The notes under the pieces are model-generated. The model made no database searches. It saw nothing but the letters and a program-made list of their open reading frames with translations, and was not told the origin of the DNA. Of a stretch of 5,323 nt of DNA, positions 21 through 4,008 are shown piece by piece (the stretch's first letter is position 1; each line of letters opens with the position of its first letter). Origin of the DNA: an archaeon (GTDB lineage: Archaea > Nanobdellota > Nanobdellia > Woesearchaeales > GW2011-AR9); contig JAHFRS010000089.1 of NCBI GenBank assembly GCA_023266155.1, forward strand, positions 1-5,323, given 5' to 3'. The translations under genes and the position numbers were made by a program.

Positions 21-39
21 CAACCTTTATATACAAATC
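21..39 (+). promoter_or_regulatory. Archaeal promoter of the beta-propeller gene
   Basis: The TATA box TTTATATA is at 26-33, preceded by a BRE-like CAACC at 21-25. Its first T is 32 nt before the ATG at 58, so transcription should begin at or within a few bases of the start codon. All 19 bases at 21-39 recur exactly at 3533-3551 upstream of the paralogue at 3571. Similarity continues into TTCTTT, so the two promoters are duplicates. The 20 bases before it are pyrimidine-rich and hold no recognisable gene. Confidence 0.8.
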
Positions 40-57
40 ATTCTTTTGAAGTGGTAA

Positions 58-210
58 ATGGCACTTACAGATTTACTTGGTTCGGCGTTGCGCGGCGCGG
101 CGTTAGGATTGGCGATGTACGTTTCTAGCTGTGGCGGGTCATCACCCAGTATGGGCTGTCAAAGAGATACCGATTGTTATGCGCCACGGGTCTGTGTGCA
201 AGGGTATTGT
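58..210 (+). repeat. Constant 5' module, copy 1
   Basis: This is the first of three coding copies of a 51-codon module (leader plus Cys25, C34, C40, C46, C51). By hand alignment it differs from copy 2 (1136-1288) at 8 of 153 positions, 5 of them within the first 141. No indels are seen. Similarity to copy 2 stops just after Cys51, where the two genes diverge completely. Confidence 0.88.
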
Positions 211-1131
211 GAAGATAGAAATGGTGGCGGGGAAGGTGAAAGTGAAGGTAATTCACCCGGGCCAAACGGTACTTCTGGTGGCAATACAGATAATTTACTT
301 TCAAATCTAACTGGTAAGATTGTGTTTATATCTGATCGAGACACCAGTAATCAAAATAATTATGAACTCTACTCAATTAACGCTAATGGGGCCGATTTGA
401 GAAGACTAACCACCAATTCATCGATGGATTTCGCCCCAAAGTGGTCTCCTGATGGGAGAAAAATCGTTTTTGTTTCCGATCGAGATGTTAAAAACCACAG
501 GGAGATTTACACCATGGATGCTGATGGAACTAACGCAAGAAGGTTAACAGAAACTGTTTATGGGACAAATAACGGTCCCTCTTGGTCTCCGGATGGAAGA
601 AAGATCGCTTTCGAATCTATAGGAGATGATTTAAAACGTTTAGTATATTTCGACATTTACATTATGGATCCAGATGGAAACAACGTACAGAATATTACAA
701 ATACACCCAATGCTGACGAATATGGGCCAGTATGGTCTCCTGACGGCCAACAACTTGCTTTTGAATCAAATCAAAATACTGGATTTATGGATATTTATAT
801 TATGGATGCGGACGGAAGGAATCAAAGAAGGCTAACTTACGATGGTGATAATCGACGGGAGTCGAGATTTCCCGCTTGGTTTCCTGGTTCAGAAATCGTA
901 TTCTCGTCCACTCGGGATACCACCGATCATAATCTTTACATTATGAATGCTGAAGGCAACAATGTGCACAGAGTTACTTCTTCTGGTAATCCCAACTATT
1001 CTTGCTGGTCGCCTGACAGAACTAAAATTGCCTATTCCTTAGGGGGCGATGGCCAAATCAATATTATGACCGCAGATGGCGAAGAAGTTGTCGAACTAAC
1101 TGAAGGTGCCCAACCATCATGGACACCATAA
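58..1131 (+). CDS. Exported six-bladed PD40/TolB-like beta-propeller protein with Cys-rich leader module
   Basis: This 357-residue protein is predicted to be exported and to present a beta-propeller outside the cell. Residues 1-24 are a mostly hydrophobic leader ending VSSC, a lipobox-like site with Cys25. It is a poor classical signal, with only Arg12 basic and an Asp at position 5. A four-Cys module follows (C34, C40, C46, C51), then a Gly/Ser/Glu/Asn linker (52-85). Six PD40 blades start near residues 86, 134, 181, 231, 278 and 321. They show the pattern KIxFxSxRD, then IYxMDxDG, then RRLT, then WSPDG, with WFPG and WSPDR variants in blades 4 and 5. PD40 repeats occur in TolB and in many secreted propellers that bind proteins or sugars. 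No TolB N-terminal domain and no catalytic domain is present, so a binding or scaffold role is inferred; the ligand is unknown. The start is fixed by the promoter spacing and by identity with two paralogues. The next paralogue begins 4 nt after the stop. Confidence 0.9.
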   Translation: MALTDLLGSALRGAALGLAMYVSSCGGSSPSMGCQRDTDCYAPRVCVQGYCEDRNGGGEGESEGNSPGPNGTSGGNTDNLLSNLTGKIVFISDRDTSNQNNYELYSINANGADLRRLTTNSSMDFAPKWSPDGRKIVFVSDRDVKNHREIYTMDADGTNARRLTETVYGTNNGPSWSPDGRKIAFESIGDDLKRLVYFDIYIMDPDGNNVQNITNTPNADEYGPVWSPDGQQLAFESNQNTGFMDIYIMDADGRNQRRLTYDGDNRRESRFPAWFPGSEIVFSSTRDTTDHNLYIMNAEGNNVHRVTSSGNPNYSCWSPDRTKIAYSLGGDGQINIMTADGEEVVELTEGAQPSWTP

Positions 1132-1135
1132 CTTT

Positions 1136-1288
1136 ATGGCACTTACAGATTTACTTGGTTCGGCGTTGCGCGGCACGGCGTTAGGATTGGCGATGTACGT
1201 TTCTAGCTGTGGTGGGCCATCGCCAAGTATGGGCTGTCAAAGAGATACCGATTGTTATGCGCCACGGGTCTGTGTGGAAGGGGAATGT
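1136..1288 (+). repeat. Constant 5' module, copy 2
   Basis: This is a near-identical direct repeat of 58-210. It begins exactly at the start codon; the promoter was not duplicated with it. A 25-nt run at 1173-1197 is identical to 3608-3632 in copy 3, while copy 1 has one mismatch there. Copies 2 and 3 share Thr14 where copy 1 has Ala. Confidence 0.88.
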
Positions 1289-2047
1289 CAGGATTCTTAT
1301 GAAGATACAAATAATGATAATGATGATAGTAATAGTCGGGGAAAAGATAATAATTGTAACCCTCGAGCATCAAAGGGATGTTATTTAGGTGAGGTATACT
1401 GGGAAGACAGTTGTGGTCAGCGCGGGGAACAAGAAAAAAAATGTTCAGAGAGCTGTCGAGACGGCGAATGCGTCACGGATTGTAACGTTTTCCTTACGGA
1501 ATACGAGGGTGTCTGTTATGATAATGATCCCTATTGGCAGGATAATTGTGGTAATTTAGGAAAGAGGATTGAAAATTGCGGGGAATATGAATCTTGTTGG
1601 CGTGGTTTGGCTTGCGATTATGAATCCGAACGTTGGGAAGATCTTGGCAATGGGACCATTCGTGATTTAATGTTGGGTGTTCTTTGGCAGAAGGATTCAT
1701 TTCGTCGGTATGATTGCATTCAATTTGAAGGTGATGAAAATTGCTGTATTAATTATGACACTGCTCCTCTATATTGTAATTCTCTCTCTTTAGGTGGTAG
1801 AGAAAACTGGCGAGTGCCAAGTATAGAAGAACTAGAAAGTCTAGTGCTGGAGCGAGTAGAAGAGAGTTGTCACATTAGTTCAATATTTGAGGGTCTTTGT
1901 AGACCATATACCTCTTCAGATCTAGGTGATTGCGGGTGTAGTCCCATTTATGGCTGCGATGAAATGACCGTTGACTTTGAATATGGGAACACTGCTTGTG
2001 CAGCCTTAGAGGATTGTTCAGATTTACGATGTGTAACTGACAGATAA
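1136..2047 (+). CDS. Exported Cys-rich protein: leader module, two YWxDxCG repeats and DUF1566 (Lcl-type) domain
   Basis: This 303-residue predicted exported protein carries the same 51-residue leader and four-Cys module as its upstream neighbour. An Asn/Asp-rich linker follows (52-73). Residues 74-160 hold two related cysteine repeats, CYLGEVYWEDSCG and CYDNDPYWQDNCG, each followed by further Cys; such repeats occur in secreted proteins of myxobacteria and DPANN archaea. Residues 167-303 match DUF1566: GNGTIRD, GVLWQK, LGGRENWRVPSIEELESLV, and a terminal LRCVTDR like the usual VRCVR. The domain is interrupted by extra Cys-containing stretches. DUF1566 is found in surface and secreted proteins and has no firm enzymatic role. 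ATG 1136 is chosen by alignment with the paralogues; a GTG at 1106 in the same frame would add ten residues they lack. No TATA box or Shine-Dalgarno site lies just upstream, so co-transcription with the propeller gene and reinitiation across the 4-nt gap are inferred. Confidence 0.87.
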   Translation: MALTDLLGSALRGTALGLAMYVSSCGGPSPSMGCQRDTDCYAPRVCVEGECQDSYEDTNNDNDDSNSRGKDNNCNPRASKGCYLGEVYWEDSCGQRGEQEKKCSESCRDGECVTDCNVFLTEYEGVCYDNDPYWQDNCGNLGKRIENCGEYESCWRGLACDYESERWEDLGNGTIRDLMLGVLWQKDSFRRYDCIQFEGDENCCINYDTAPLYCNSLSLGGRENWRVPSIEELESLVLERVEESCHISSIFEGLCRPYTSSDLGDCGCSPIYGCDEMTVDFEYGNTACAALEDCSDLRCVTDR

Positions 2048-2059
2048 CTTCTTGGAGTT

Positions 2060-2094
2060 GGGCGGAATGAAAAAAAGAGCAGAGATTTTATAAA
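2060..2094 (+). promoter_or_regulatory. Promoter block of the first toxin-antitoxin remnant
   Basis: The TATA box TTTATAAA is at 2087-2094, 33 nt before the ATG at 2120. The block starting GGGCGGAATGAAAAAAAGA at 2060 closely matches the block at 2831-2866 upstream of vapBC, including a shared 13-nt core AATGAAAAAAAGA and the same TATA box. The two cassettes therefore share a promoter and possibly a regulatory site. The stretch 2048-2119 holds no other feature. Confidence 0.65.
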
Positions 2095-2119
2095 GTAAGG
2101 TATATTTATTTTCTGTAAA

Positions 2120-2254
2120 ATGGAAACCGTCACCATACCTAAAGAAGAGTACAACTTATTGAAAAAACAAGCAAAAGTTGATATGGATATCCTACAGCAG
2201 CTGATGAGTAGTTTTCAGGATATCAGGGCAGGAAGAGTGAGAAGGGTGAGATGA
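2120..2254 (+). CDS. Small RelB-like antitoxin of a type II toxin-antitoxin system
   Basis: This 44-codon gene encodes a mostly helical, charged protein. It starts METVTIPKEEYNLLKKQA and ends with a basic tail, DIRAGRVRRVR. The pattern (xVTIPKEEYxLLKKxA, then an acidic helix, then DIxAGRxRR) is what I recognise from short archaeal antitoxins encoded just upstream of RelE-like toxins. The N-terminal beta strand would serve DNA binding or dimerisation, and the C-terminal helix and tail would bind the toxin; this is by family analogy. It has its own TATA box, 33 nt before the ATG. The stop region reads ATGA (2251-2254), the usual junction at which a toxin frame would begin, yet the frame from ATG 2251 ends after 13 codons. 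The only toxin-like sequence nearby is on the other strand, so this appears to be an orphan antitoxin. The exact family is uncertain. Confidence 0.72.
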   Translation: METVTIPKEEYNLLKKQAKVDMDILQQLMSSFQDIRAGRVRRVR

Positions 2255-2257
2255 TCC

Positions 2258-2521
2258 TTATTTTTGTATCAAATTTCTTATTTCATCTTTAAATTGATCT
2301 ACCAAGAGCCAAATGGTATTGATGACCATTTGCTGATCTTTCTTAGCACTTATTCCTACGACATAGACTACCTTAAACTCATCATAAATCAAGTAGTACA
2401 CACGATATTTTTCTTTCTTTTTCTCACGAAACCAGGGAACTCTGATTTGGTCTCCAACATAAGGGTTTTCGACCAGTTGGTCTTCAATTTTGCCAACCCA
2501 TTCCCGGAAATCTTTGGGCAG
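2258..2521 (-). pseudogene. RelE/ParE-like toxin, N-terminally truncated and opposed to its antitoxin
   Basis: Read on the minus strand, this encodes about 87 residues beginning LPKDFREW. It includes ENPYVGDQIRVPWFREKKKE, then YRVYYLIYDEFKVVYVVGIS, then KKDQQ and a C-terminal helical tail. This is the RelE-fold toxin pattern: a helical hairpin after LPK, the ENPxxG turn, the reK...YRVYYxIyD strands, and a basic KK before the last helix. These toxins are usually ribosome-dependent mRNA endonucleases. The first 15-20 residues of the family, which form the first beta strand and lead into helix 1, are missing. Upstream of the break the frame stays open to an ATG at 2605, but those 28 residues are antisense to the exported-protein fragment and have no toxin character. 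No TATA box lies at the expected distance before 2605. The stop codon is 3 nt from the antitoxin stop, tail-to-tail, rather than downstream on the same strand. It is probably inactive. Confidence 0.7.
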
Positions 2522-2842
2522 GGGTATTGTGAAGGTTCTGAAGGGGAAAGGGAGGGGAATAATGAACCAACGTACCCGGGCATGTGTGAAGCGTATCGTG
2601 ATCATTACTTAAGCATTGTTCTTGGGCATACCGGAAGTTCTTTAATGGAAGAATATGAAAAATGTGTACAATCTTGCCTACCTACAGTTTTAGATAGGGG
2701 ATATTGTATATCTATTTACTGTGCACTTGAAGCTTCTGTAAACGCTAATGATGTTTCGGAAATTAATTATGATCTTAATCGTCGCTGTGCGGAAAATTTT
2801 GGTTTAGTTTTCAATGTAAAAGATGAAGCTGGGCGAAAATGA
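2519..2842 (+). pseudogene. 5'-truncated member of the exported Cys-rich family (six-Cys domain body)
   Basis: The frame from 2519 encodes 107 residues. It begins at QGYC, which aligns with Q48-G-Y-C51 of the propeller protein, and continues with the acidic linker GSEGEREGNN. The rest is a small Cys-rich domain matching the body of the protein at 3571-4008. Shared marks are CxxY, an xTG followed by SSL, YxxCVxxC, then Cys and CALE/CAVE, and a last Cys before a Gly. Cys spacing is C-x25-C-x3-C-x9-C-x4-C-x21-C, against x31, x3, x10, x4, x19 in the intact paralogue. The promoter, leader and first three module cysteines are gone, replaced at the junction by the antisense of the toxin. The open frame runs back to an ATG at 2264, but those 85 residues are only the complement of the toxin. 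Expression as a secreted protein is unlikely. Its stop lies inside the vapBC promoter block. Confidence 0.72.
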
Positions 2843-2866
2843 AAAAAAGACAATAAGTTTTATAAA
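2831..2866 (+). promoter_or_regulatory. Promoter block of vapBC
   Basis: The TATA box TTTATAAA is at 2859-2866, 31 nt before the vapB ATG at 2890. The whole block resembles 2060-2094, as described there. Its left part overlaps the last codons of the truncated exported-protein frame. Toxin-antitoxin operons are commonly autoregulated, and the shared A-tract just upstream of the TATA box is a candidate operator; no clear palindrome is visible. Confidence 0.65.
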
Positions 2867-2889
2867 TAACTTTCCTTTAGAGAACTTTA

Positions 2890-3129
2890 ATGACTACTGA
2901 GATCGAAGGGGTCTGGCGACACGGCCGGATTGTTCCTTTGGACAACGTTGATTTAGAAGAAGAAACAAAAGTTCTCATCAGTGTTGTCGCTGAAAAAAAA
3001 GTAAAATTACCAGAATTAGCAGGTGCCTGGAAAGACTACCGAACGAAAGACGGGAAAACACTTGATGATGTAAAAAAGGAAATTTATGACAGCAGGAAGA
3101 TTTCGACCCGGGGAGCGGCAGTATTATGA
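2890..3129 (+). CDS. vapB: VapB-type antitoxin, DUF104 (AF2212-like)
   Basis: This 79-residue antitoxin pairs with the PIN toxin whose start overlaps its stop by 4 nt (ATGA). Residues 4-32, containing IEGVWRHGRIVPLDNVDLEE, match the DUF104/AF2212-like fold (xIxAxYxxGxxxPLxxxxLxEGxxV), with Glu-Thr where Glu-Gly is usual. This small beta domain serves as the DNA-binding and dimerising part in related antitoxins. Residues 43-79 form the toxin-neutralising tail: LAGAWKD, then LDDVKKEIYDSRKISTRG, where Trp and Arg side chains would enter the toxin groove by analogy with known VapBC complexes. The ATG is supported by the TATA box 31 nt upstream. The gene is full length for the family and appears functional. 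Confidence 0.85.
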   Translation: MTTEIEGVWRHGRIVPLDNVDLEEETKVLISVVAEKKVKLPELAGAWKDYRTKDGKTLDDVKKEIYDSRKISTRGAAVL

Positions 3130-3518
3130 CCTTCTGTTTAGACACCGACCATGTTATCGAGTATCTCAAAGGGAATGCCGCAGTTACTTCTAAAATAAAA
3201 TTATCTGAGGAAGAGATTTGTATCACCCCTATTACCGTTCTGGAATTATTTTATGGGGCCTATCGATCCGCACAGGTATCCCGAAGAGCGGGAGAAGTAC
3301 GCCAGTTCGTCGGTGCCTTTGAAGTACTCCCATTCAATCAGTTGGTCTATGAACAATTTGGTTTTCTGAAAGCAGAATTGGCTGAAAAGGGCGAGTTGCT
3401 GGATAATTTTGATCTCGTTATTGCCAGTTTCTGCCGTGCTCATAACCATATTCTTGTTACCAGCAACAAAAAACATTTTGAAAGAATCAAAGGACTGAAG
3501 ATCGAAAACTGGCGGTAA
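3126..3518 (+). CDS. vapC: VapC-type PIN-domain ribonuclease toxin
   Basis: This 130-residue PIN-domain protein has the length usual for VapC. The expected active-site acids are in order: Asp6 in LDTDHVIEYLKG, Glu40 in ITVLELFYGA, and Asp96 in LDNFDLVIAS (with Asp93 close by). The fourth position is Asn114 in VTSNKKHFERI, corresponding to the usual T(N/D)NxxHF. The protein ends GLKIENWR, a typical VapC terminus. VapC toxins are Mg2+-dependent endoribonucleases that cut tRNA or rRNA and slow growth until bound by VapB; the target here cannot be read from sequence. Translation is coupled to vapB through the ATGA overlap at 3126-3129. All core residues are present, so the module is probably active, in contrast to the broken one upstream. 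Confidence 0.9.
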   Translation: MTFCLDTDHVIEYLKGNAAVTSKIKLSEEEICITPITVLELFYGAYRSAQVSRRAGEVRQFVGAFEVLPFNQLVYEQFGFLKAELAEKGELLDNFDLVIASFCRAHNHILVTSNKKHFERIKGLKIENWR

Positions 3519-3531
3519 CGATTTTCCCGCC
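3511..3531. repeat. Short GC-rich inverted repeat spanning the vapC stop
   Basis: GGCGG at 3511-3515 pairs with CCGCC at 3527-3531 across an 11-nt loop containing the vapC stop codon. It could be a weak terminator-type hairpin between vapC and the next promoter, but it has only five pairs and no T-run directly after it, so chance is possible. Confidence 0.3.
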
Positions 3532-3532
3532 G

Positions 3533-3551
3533 CAACCTTTATATACAAATC
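3533..3551 (+). promoter_or_regulatory. Archaeal promoter of the small Cys-rich exported protein
   Basis: The TATA box TTTATATA is at 3538-3545 with CAACC directly upstream, 33 nt before the ATG at 3571. It is identical over 19 nt to the promoter of the propeller gene. This indicates that leader and promoter were duplicated together here, unlike the copy at 1136. Confidence 0.8.
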
Positions 3552-3570
3552 GTTCTTTCAGGGTAGTAAA

Positions 3571-3723
3571 ATGACTTTAACTGACTTGATTGGCAAAACC
3601 TTGCGCAGCACGGCGTTAGGATTGGCGATGTATGTGGCGGGCTGTGGCAACGATTCTGAGAAGGAAGGCTGTCAGAATGATTATGATTGCCGCGAGCCAA
3701 GGGTGTGTGTAAGGGGATATTGT
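3571..3723 (+). repeat. Constant 5' module, copy 3
   Basis: This is the most diverged copy of the 51-codon module, with cysteine positions and length conserved exactly. The best-conserved DNA is the hydrophobic leader segment at 3608-3632. After Cys51 it keeps 23 identical bases with the truncated copy (3718-3740 against 2525-2547), so copies 3 and 4 also share the acidic linker. Confidence 0.8.
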
Positions 3724-4008
3724 GAAGGTTCTGAAGGGGAGGGGGAAGGCGAAGACAACATTTGTGATAGATACCTAAAAAATTGTCCTTTCGCTTATGA
3801 TTATGATACAGGAAAGCTTACAGACCAATCATCTTTAAGTTCTAAAGATTATGGACTTTGTGTAGAATATTGTGTAATGCAAGGTCAGCGAGATATGGAA
3901 CTGTGTGGTTTTATCGCTTGTGCAGTTGAAACTGGTTATTGTGACAATGAGGTTCAGGAAGATCTACAGATCATCGCTTGCATGAAGCGACATGGATGGG
4001 ACAAGTGA
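3571..4008 (+). CDS. Small exported Cys-rich protein with the shared leader module and a six-Cys domain
   Basis: This 145-residue protein belongs to the family at 58 and 1136. Its leader ends VAGC, a good lipobox match (Cys25), and C34, C40, C46 and C51 fall at exactly the same residues. An acidic linker, GSEGEGEGEDN, follows at 53-63. Residues 65-137 form a compact Cys-rich domain also present in the truncated copy at 2519-2842. The shared cysteines are C65, C97, C101, C112, C117 and C137, giving C-x31-C-x3-C-x10-C-x4-C-x19-C; C72 and C124 are extra here. The helical look of the CxxxC and CxxxxC stretches suggests a disulfide-braced helical hairpin; this is inference. I do not recognise a named family, and the function is unknown. 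Location at the cell surface is inferred from the leader. It has its own duplicated promoter. Confidence 0.85.
   Translation: MTLTDLIGKTLRSTALGLAMYVAGCGNDSEKEGCQNDYDCREPRVCVRGYCEGSEGEGEGEDNICDRYLKNCPFAYDYDTGKLTDQSSLSSKDYGLCVEYCVMQGQRDMELCGFIACAVETGYCDNEVQEDLQIIACMKRHGWDK

Follow-up and report, generated by a model that had tools for sequence, protein, structure and literature searches.

A near-identical lipoprotein-type leader on unrelated protein bodies in Woesearchaeales, probably redistributed by recombination

The stretch of DNA analyzed here, called the window throughout, is one entire contig (C26; JAHFRS010000089.1) of 5323 bases from a metagenome-assembled genome (MAG) of the archaeal order Woesearchaeales. 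The MAG measures 1.19 Mb and is 82.7% complete, with 5.56% contamination. Three genes in the window have a start of about 52 codons in common, the leader module, and continue into different bodies (Table 1). The similarity of copies 1 and 2 begins at the ATG and extends slightly past the last motif Cys. The two leaders differ at 8 of 153 bases, or 10 of 159, and are identical at 48 of 53 residues; three of the eight codons that differ within the first 53 are synonymous, which indicates that the module was shared recently. Counted per 30 nucleotides (nt), the identity between copies 1 and 2 is 30, 29, 26, 30 and 27 (142 of 150 in total) and then 13, 15, 11, 8, 11 and 6. The break is therefore sharp and lies directly behind codon 51, the fourth motif Cys. 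By BLAST, positions 1136–1294 of copy 2 match positions 58–216 of copy 1, and this similarity begins exactly at the copy 2 ATG. Copies 1 and 3 have 96 of 126 bases in common from −47 to 78, a region that includes the core promoter. The Cys residues at 25, 34, 40, 46 and 51 align in all three copies.

The bodies are not related to each other. Pfam assigns body 1 to PD40 and body 2 to Lcl_C, a domain with a lectin-like fold, while copy 3 has no Pfam match at E <= 1. Compared with each other by phmmer, the bodies give E-values of 8.0 (copies 1 and 2), 6.6 and 2.0, which is noise level. A preliminary description of this DNA had thus correctly reported the Cys residues in register, the 8 differences in 153 bases, the unrelated bodies and the abrupt end of DNA similarity. 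It had also listed a fourth, truncated copy with the third body type. A remnant does exist, consisting of about the last five leader residues plus a linker (89% like copy 3 over 36 nt). The likeness of its body to that of copy 3 is weak, with a score reached by 2 of 1000 shuffles and a BLASTP E-value of 57. Propellers, Lcl_C and small Cys-rich bodies would suit binding. In family profile scans none of the three window bodies matched a toxin family, which sets them apart from polymorphic toxins. A structure model of copy 3 was unusable (mean predicted local distance difference test score, pLDDT, 47).

Table 1. Features of the window, with positions counted from its first base.
Feature	Positions	Strand	Remarks
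Core promoter of copy 1	25..57	+	CTTTATATA; TATA-like match −32 to −30 from ATG; homologous to region before copy 3
Leader module copy 1	58..216	+	Predicted lipoprotein signal peptide, lipobox-like VSSC (Cys25), four-Cys motif
Body 1, PD40/TolB-like beta-propeller	217..1131	+	Pfam PF07676 E 1e-35; TIGR02800 E 1e-49, below its cut-off
Leader module copy 2	1136..1294	+	Similarity begins at ATG, 4 nt past copy 1 stop
Body 2, YWxDxCG repeats + Lcl_C (DUF1566)	1295..2047	+	Pfam PF07603 E 1.6e-9
Leader remnant + Cys-rich body weakly like body 3	about 2519..2842	+	Last leader residues GYCEGSEGE
Core promoter of copy 3	3522..3570	+	82% to positions 10–58
Leader module copy 3	3571..3729	+	65% DNA identity to copy 1; lipobox-like VAGC
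Body 3, small Cys-rich domain	3730..4008	+	Related to P0007 and P0011 bodies
Predicted secreted KKR protein, 361 aa	4143..5228	+	phmmer E 6e-49 to G013 protein, 2e-21 to G068

From the lipobox-like VSSC or VAGC and the hydrophobic stretch, export and lipid anchoring are predicted for the leader-bearing proteins. TATA-like matches lie 30–32 nt before copy 1, whose transcript is predicted to be nearly leaderless, and none is present within 70 nt before copy 2. Copies 1 and 2, with 4 nt between them, look like one operon with a single TATA box. Of 28 genes examined, 8 have such a match between −33 and −30, including copies 1 and 3. The promoter is conserved together with the leader in these two copies, in genome G020 and in genes 6 and 7 of genome G011; it is absent for copy 2 and for other downstream genes. 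By itself, the core promoter element has one match in the MAG, on contig C141 before an unrelated open reading frame (ORF) of 491 residues, so the element is not private to the module.

The Cys spacing of the module is like that of squash-type knottins (PF00299) and of DUF7107. The copy 1 leader scores 20.8 bits against Squash (gathering score 22; E 4e-4), just below the cut-off, and 15.1 bits against DUF7107 (gathering score 24.6). Among 12 leaders compared at E <= 1, DUF7107 matched 11 and Squash 3. The top five Foldseek matches are squash-type or engineered cystine-knot peptides (best E 0.37, from a low-confidence model). Squash inhibitors have six Cys; the module differs from them in its four Cys and in Pfam scores below the cut-off. 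The Cys segment may form a small two-disulfide knot, in which case it would act as a rigid spacer.

The MAG itself adds little to these three copies. No further copy of the window leader was found in it, and all three lie at one place; beyond the window there is one weak match on contig C175 (E 0.024 with the copy 1 leader, 7.4e-4 with a profile), which is a different small lipoprotein with a different start. A first scan of genome contigs with the window's own leader gave no match. A leader profile (A3) was built from 18 leaders and matched 33 of the 49 genomes of the family in the collection used (0.6–1.6 Mb) at E <= 0.001 and 19 at E <= 1e-8; ten of these 33 had contributed to the profile and match by construction. 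Elsewhere in the order, matches occur in 34 of 303 genomes, with a best E of 2.9e-7; many of them are restricted to the Cys motif. A contig scan gave 70 loci, mostly in Myxococcota and other bacteria and most of them matched over the Cys motif alone, a motif that as such is widespread in Myxococcota. Several named relatives with the leader belong to Candidatus Woesearchaeota, a group named Woesearchaeales in GTDB.

Leaders of this kind recur on unrelated bodies in metagenome proteins and in relatives. Three protein searches covering 5.8 billion sequences returned 5, 8 and 7 rows, among them repeats, the query itself and the proteins of the window. Near-identical or closely related leaders carry PD40 in P0012, a body type called D in P0002, P0004, P0005, P0010 and P0015–P0017, copy-3-like bodies in P0007 and P0011, body E in P0008, and two more body kinds, one in P0009 and P0019 and the other in P0018. 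The pattern is clearest in P0017 and P0018, which have 50 of 52 leader residues in common and unrelated bodies (phmmer E 1.6). In P0009, P0010 and P0012, 34–40 of 50 leader residues are identical, with bodies at E 0.36–4.5, and within G020 the PD40 and body D genes agree at 40 of 54 leader residues, with bodies at E 3.9. The copy 1 leader itself, at 51 of 53 residues, sits on body D in P0002. This protein could be a further paralog from the window's own genome; at the protein level, it provides the different body content behind one leader that had been foreseen. Body D is found behind Cys-type, TTNNYY-type and short leaders. For this body, the structure model (mean pLDDT 57) gave no Foldseek match at E <= 0.001. 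PD40, Lcl_C and body D represent distinct families, and each of them is also present in other genera. Leaders of a second type, in which TTNNYY or TNNYYGG follows the lipobox, were seen on body D, body E and others (L151, L154, L068).

For each of four proteins (P0001, P0003, P0005 and P0006) the protein database gives 7342 bases as the length of the longest contig; this is presumably one longer version of the window's contig. P0001, a database cluster representative, differs from window copy 1 at leader residue 28, where it equals copy 2; this single residue is suggestive of gene conversion. The preliminary description had proposed a search for many copies and named, as signs against its idea, a genome with only these copies or a stable syntenic order across relatives. 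The MAG, incomplete as it is, comes close to the former, adding only the weak C175 match, but the relatives overturn it by repeating near-identical leaders on unrelated bodies. As to gene order, which could be compared for PD40 alone, the PD40 leader genes of G026 and G020 lie in other neighbourhoods than that of the window; the one in G026 (L066) adjoins what we take to be genes for ribosomal proteins S13, S4 and S11.

Mosaic genes point to exchange between leader genes. Genome G011 contains five tandem genes with related bodies. The leader of gene 4 is identical to that of gene 3 at 116 of 120 positions (nt 1–120), vs 54 of 120 for gene 2, whereas its body matches gene 2 at 38 of 40 (nt 161–200) and 37 of 40 (nt 201–240), vs 24 of 40 for gene 3 (nt 161–200). 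Gene 4 thus has its leader from gene 3 and its body from gene 2. It lies inside a contig and has private differences at 4 of the 120 leader nt and at 66 of the 381 aligned body nt. A second case concerns G021 and G070, which have a common locus with two shared neighbours. Upstream, the G021 gene resembles its G070 ortholog (G070_a; 41/49, 40/50 and 37/50) rather than the neighbouring G070 gene (G070_b; 20/42, 21/48 and 22/42), and its leader resembles both. From nt 250 to about 387 it follows G070_b (45/50, 46/50 and 32/37) and not G070_a (22/50, 18/50 and 19/50); past this point it is like neither. Such a start would result from a crossover between tandem leaders with loss of the first body. 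At the protein level, P0004 joins the copy 1 signal peptide (22/22) and the copy 3 Cys segment (29/31) on a type D body. Lastly, the body D proteins of G012 and G017 are mutual best matches among the 12 body D proteins compared (44–48%), and both genes precede a KKR protein, while the leader is of the TTNNYY type in G012 and of the Cys type in G017. The earlier proposal that one leader is joined to different bodies by recombination is thus supported in several lineages.

The association between leaders and bodies was also addressed statistically. From the profile matches, 40 stretches (not all matches) were chosen which, together with the window, gave 56 leader-profile matches. Seven of these were left out by eye (L165, L166, L167, L169, L171, L172 and L175) and G008 is also absent, so that the final sample has 48 proteins from 22 genomes in 1128 pairs, which are not independent and of which 58 were unused. 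Bodies were considered unrelated at a phmmer E > 0.01 and related at E < 0.001. These pairwise E-values were used because single-linkage body clusters, which were dropped, chained multidomain proteins into a set of 33. The mean leader identity is 0.353 for pairs from the same genome with unrelated bodies (n = 37), 0.293 for pairs from different genera with related bodies (n = 90) and 0.263 for pairs from different genera with unrelated bodies (n = 943). The same-genome excess was reached in 1 of 2000 leader shuffles. When body classes were set by hand and lengths normalised differently, an earlier test yielded p 1e-4 for same genome and 0.79 for same body. Five same-genome pairs with unrelated bodies reach 0.6 identity (three in the window, one in G020, one in G021), vs none between genera under the final norm (maximum 0.645 under the earlier length norm). 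Leader similarity hence tracks the genome more than the body, with a weak body signal remaining.

The shared leaders, the sharp breaks, the chimeric genes and the occurrence of one body type behind several leader types are probably best explained by cassettes of promoter, signal peptide, lipobox and Cys motif on unrelated bodies, which are moved between genes by recombination and would provide many surface domains with one export-and-anchor tag. The near-identical 5′ cassette consists of the predicted signal peptide and the four-Cys motif, joined by the core promoter in some of the genes that stand alone. Exchange would proceed mainly by homologous recombination between leader repeats, either as gene conversion or as a crossover deleting the intervening body, and non-homologous capture would supply new bodies. 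The proteins are predicted to be exported, lipidated at the lipobox Cys and displayed on the surface, where the bodies would be binding domains directed toward a partner cell or the medium; that they bind a partner cell is a guess from the symbiotic lifestyle ascribed to DPANN archaea. Tandem arrays would be co-expressed from the first promoter and would thus form a repertoire built over evolutionary time, with no on/off switch.

Several results weigh against this explanation. With three copies at one place, the window's own genome would not by itself suffice for the case. Among the family genomes, 16 of 49 are without a leader match at E <= 0.001 and only 19 reach E <= 1e-8, and the key metagenome cases are known from protein sequences alone. 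The pairs of related bodies from different genera exceed the background leader identity by 0.03, reached in 64 of 2000 shuffles, and this weak body signal means that some leaders travel with their bodies. The G021 gene runs into a contig end. Finally, bodies are homologous within G011 genes 1–5, within G011 genes 6 and 7 and partly between the two G070 genes (phmmer E 2.5e-8, a distant relation), and the G011 and G070 arrays are therefore also plain duplications.

Among other explanations, gene conversion could act without any movement of bodies: these would have arrived long ago with leaders of their own, which were then homogenised within each genome. This fits the likeness of leaders within genomes and accounts for private leaders such as that of G020, and conversion also permits similarity that begins and ends at the module edges, as in copy 2. 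Since in G021 and G070 an orthologous stretch of upstream DNA and leader is followed by different body starts, this account is possible but doubtful. It is improbable that these are ordinary duplicated lipoprotein genes in which selection kept the leader and the bodies diverged past recognition. The bodies of G011 genes 1–5 and of G011 genes 6 and 7 are indeed recognisable paralogs, but PD40, Lcl_C and body D belong to distinct families that other genera also have, and copies 1 and 2 differ at only three synonymous codons in the module with bodies that have no detectable similarity.

Rapid antigenic or phase variation, in which the locus would switch the expressed body, would go with the earlier comparison to variable surface lipoprotein loci. 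It finds some agreement in the near-identical tandem repeats, the truncated remnant and the ends of contigs C26 and G020:C24 within 60 nt of a leader ATG. Against it stand the operon-like arrangement of copies 1 and 2 under a single TATA box, a Pfam scan of the 8 window ORFs, covering those ORFs only, that found no recombinase, the lack of an RVT_1 match in the window's own genome and an Lcl_C end without a second copy, which together make such switching very unlikely. The latter two results, the absence of RVT_1 and of a second copy of bases 1700–2047 in the 82.7% complete genome, also led to the rejection of a diversity-generating retroelement acting on the DUF1566 body. An assembly or binning artefact at the repeat might be feared from the same contig ends and from the MAG contamination, yet it is hardly credible, as the chimeric G011 gene 4 lies within a contig and has private differences and as P0001, P0003, P0005 and P0006 are listed with what is presumably a longer version of the window's contig. 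Virus and plasmid cargo were rejected as well. A viral scan gave 11 pattern matches, none of which was confirmed. The copy 1 protein matched 125 plasmid records, all below 60% identity; the five listed begin at residue 78 or later and hence fall in the body.

Systems of similar design are known elsewhere. In Mycoplasma, variable lipoproteins (vlhA, Vlp, Vsp) are encoded by gene families with a constant signal region and a variable mature part, and their hallmark is switching machinery. The window differs from these, with no such machinery among its 8 ORFs (Pfam) and no RVT_1 match in its genome. A close parallel is formed by the Erp proteins of Borrelia (OspE, OspF and Elp, encoded on cp32 prophages), as described in PMC10016077: one promoter, leader and localisation sequence is found on external parts of many independent origins, recombination is frequent, and the leader and first mature residues are conserved. 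In strain B31, members are co-expressed, and no recombination was seen during vertebrate infection (PMC10016077). The same logic is therefore already in print for a bacterium. Here too, near-identical leaders and first mature residues stand on unrelated bodies, and recombination between members emerges from mosaics and statistics. Unlike the Erp genes, the genes described here belong to an archaeal host; the likeness is one of logic, and no homology is claimed. They have no cp32 prophage location, their named relatives being Candidatus Woesearchaeota with no confirmed viral contig among them. They also have a four-Cys motif after the lipobox and often precede a large, predicted secreted KKR protein.

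In archaea, VARTIG of Thermococcales is a large Ig-domain protein with a variable C-terminal Ig domain, according to PMC8416519. Both are archaeal surface modules with a recombining C-terminal part; unlike VARTIG, the leader of about 50 residues bears unrelated domains, and the 8 window ORFs have no Ig match in Pfam. The same paper describes a search for hypervariable modules in other archaea by means of the VARTIG protein, CARDB and Ig domains (PMC8416519), a design that likely misses a leader system of the present kind. Word searches of one open-access library on surface proteins and lipoproteins of Woesearchaeota and DPANN archaea found no description of such a system.

Other features surround the leader genes. 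KKR homologs are encoded directly after leader genes in some relatives, and the KKR gene of the window follows copy 3; their sizes vary widely (396 and 423 residues in G013, 1421 and 1481 in G068 and G017). The region between copies 2 and 3 holds two toxin-antitoxin-like pairs plus the leader remnant. In the first pair, an antitoxin-like ORF (2120–2254, +) is directed toward a ParE-like ORF (2258–2605, −; Pfam E 0.0073, below cut-off). The model, of 89 positions, is matched from position 26 onward, and the 5′ part of this ORF overlaps the leader remnant on the other strand. A rearrangement breakpoint near 2520 is likely from this layout. The second, VapBC-like pair (2890–3518, +) consists of an AF2212-like antitoxin and a PIN toxin close to tRNA(fMet) VapC models (NF047863 E 2e-31, below its cut-off). 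A 29-base repeat (83%) containing TTTTATAAA lies at 2066–2094 and 2838–2866, shortly 5′ of each antitoxin-like gene, and is perhaps a promoter form common to both.

DPANN archaea are ascribed a symbiotic lifestyle, and Nanoarchaeota surface proteins have an excess of non-synonymous single-nucleotide polymorphisms, as stated in PMC6142677. The latter would be a different route to surface diversity than the exchange of leaders and bodies described here. Little is known of the ways in which DPANN archaea recognize and hold partner cells and in which their surfaces become diverse. Tentatively, and with considerable doubt, one may imagine a combinatorial surface system in which the cassettes are recombination handles in tandem arrays: a leader-to-leader crossover would delete one body and bring the next under the first promoter, so that strains of one species would differ in their anchored partner-recognition domains. 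With the leader as a gene mark, the candidate surface repertoire of uncultured Woesearchaeota could be listed and differences between strains would become testable. If the cassette interpretation is true, these archaea would have converged on the logic of the Borrelia Erp proteins, with a constant exported start and an exchanged outward part.

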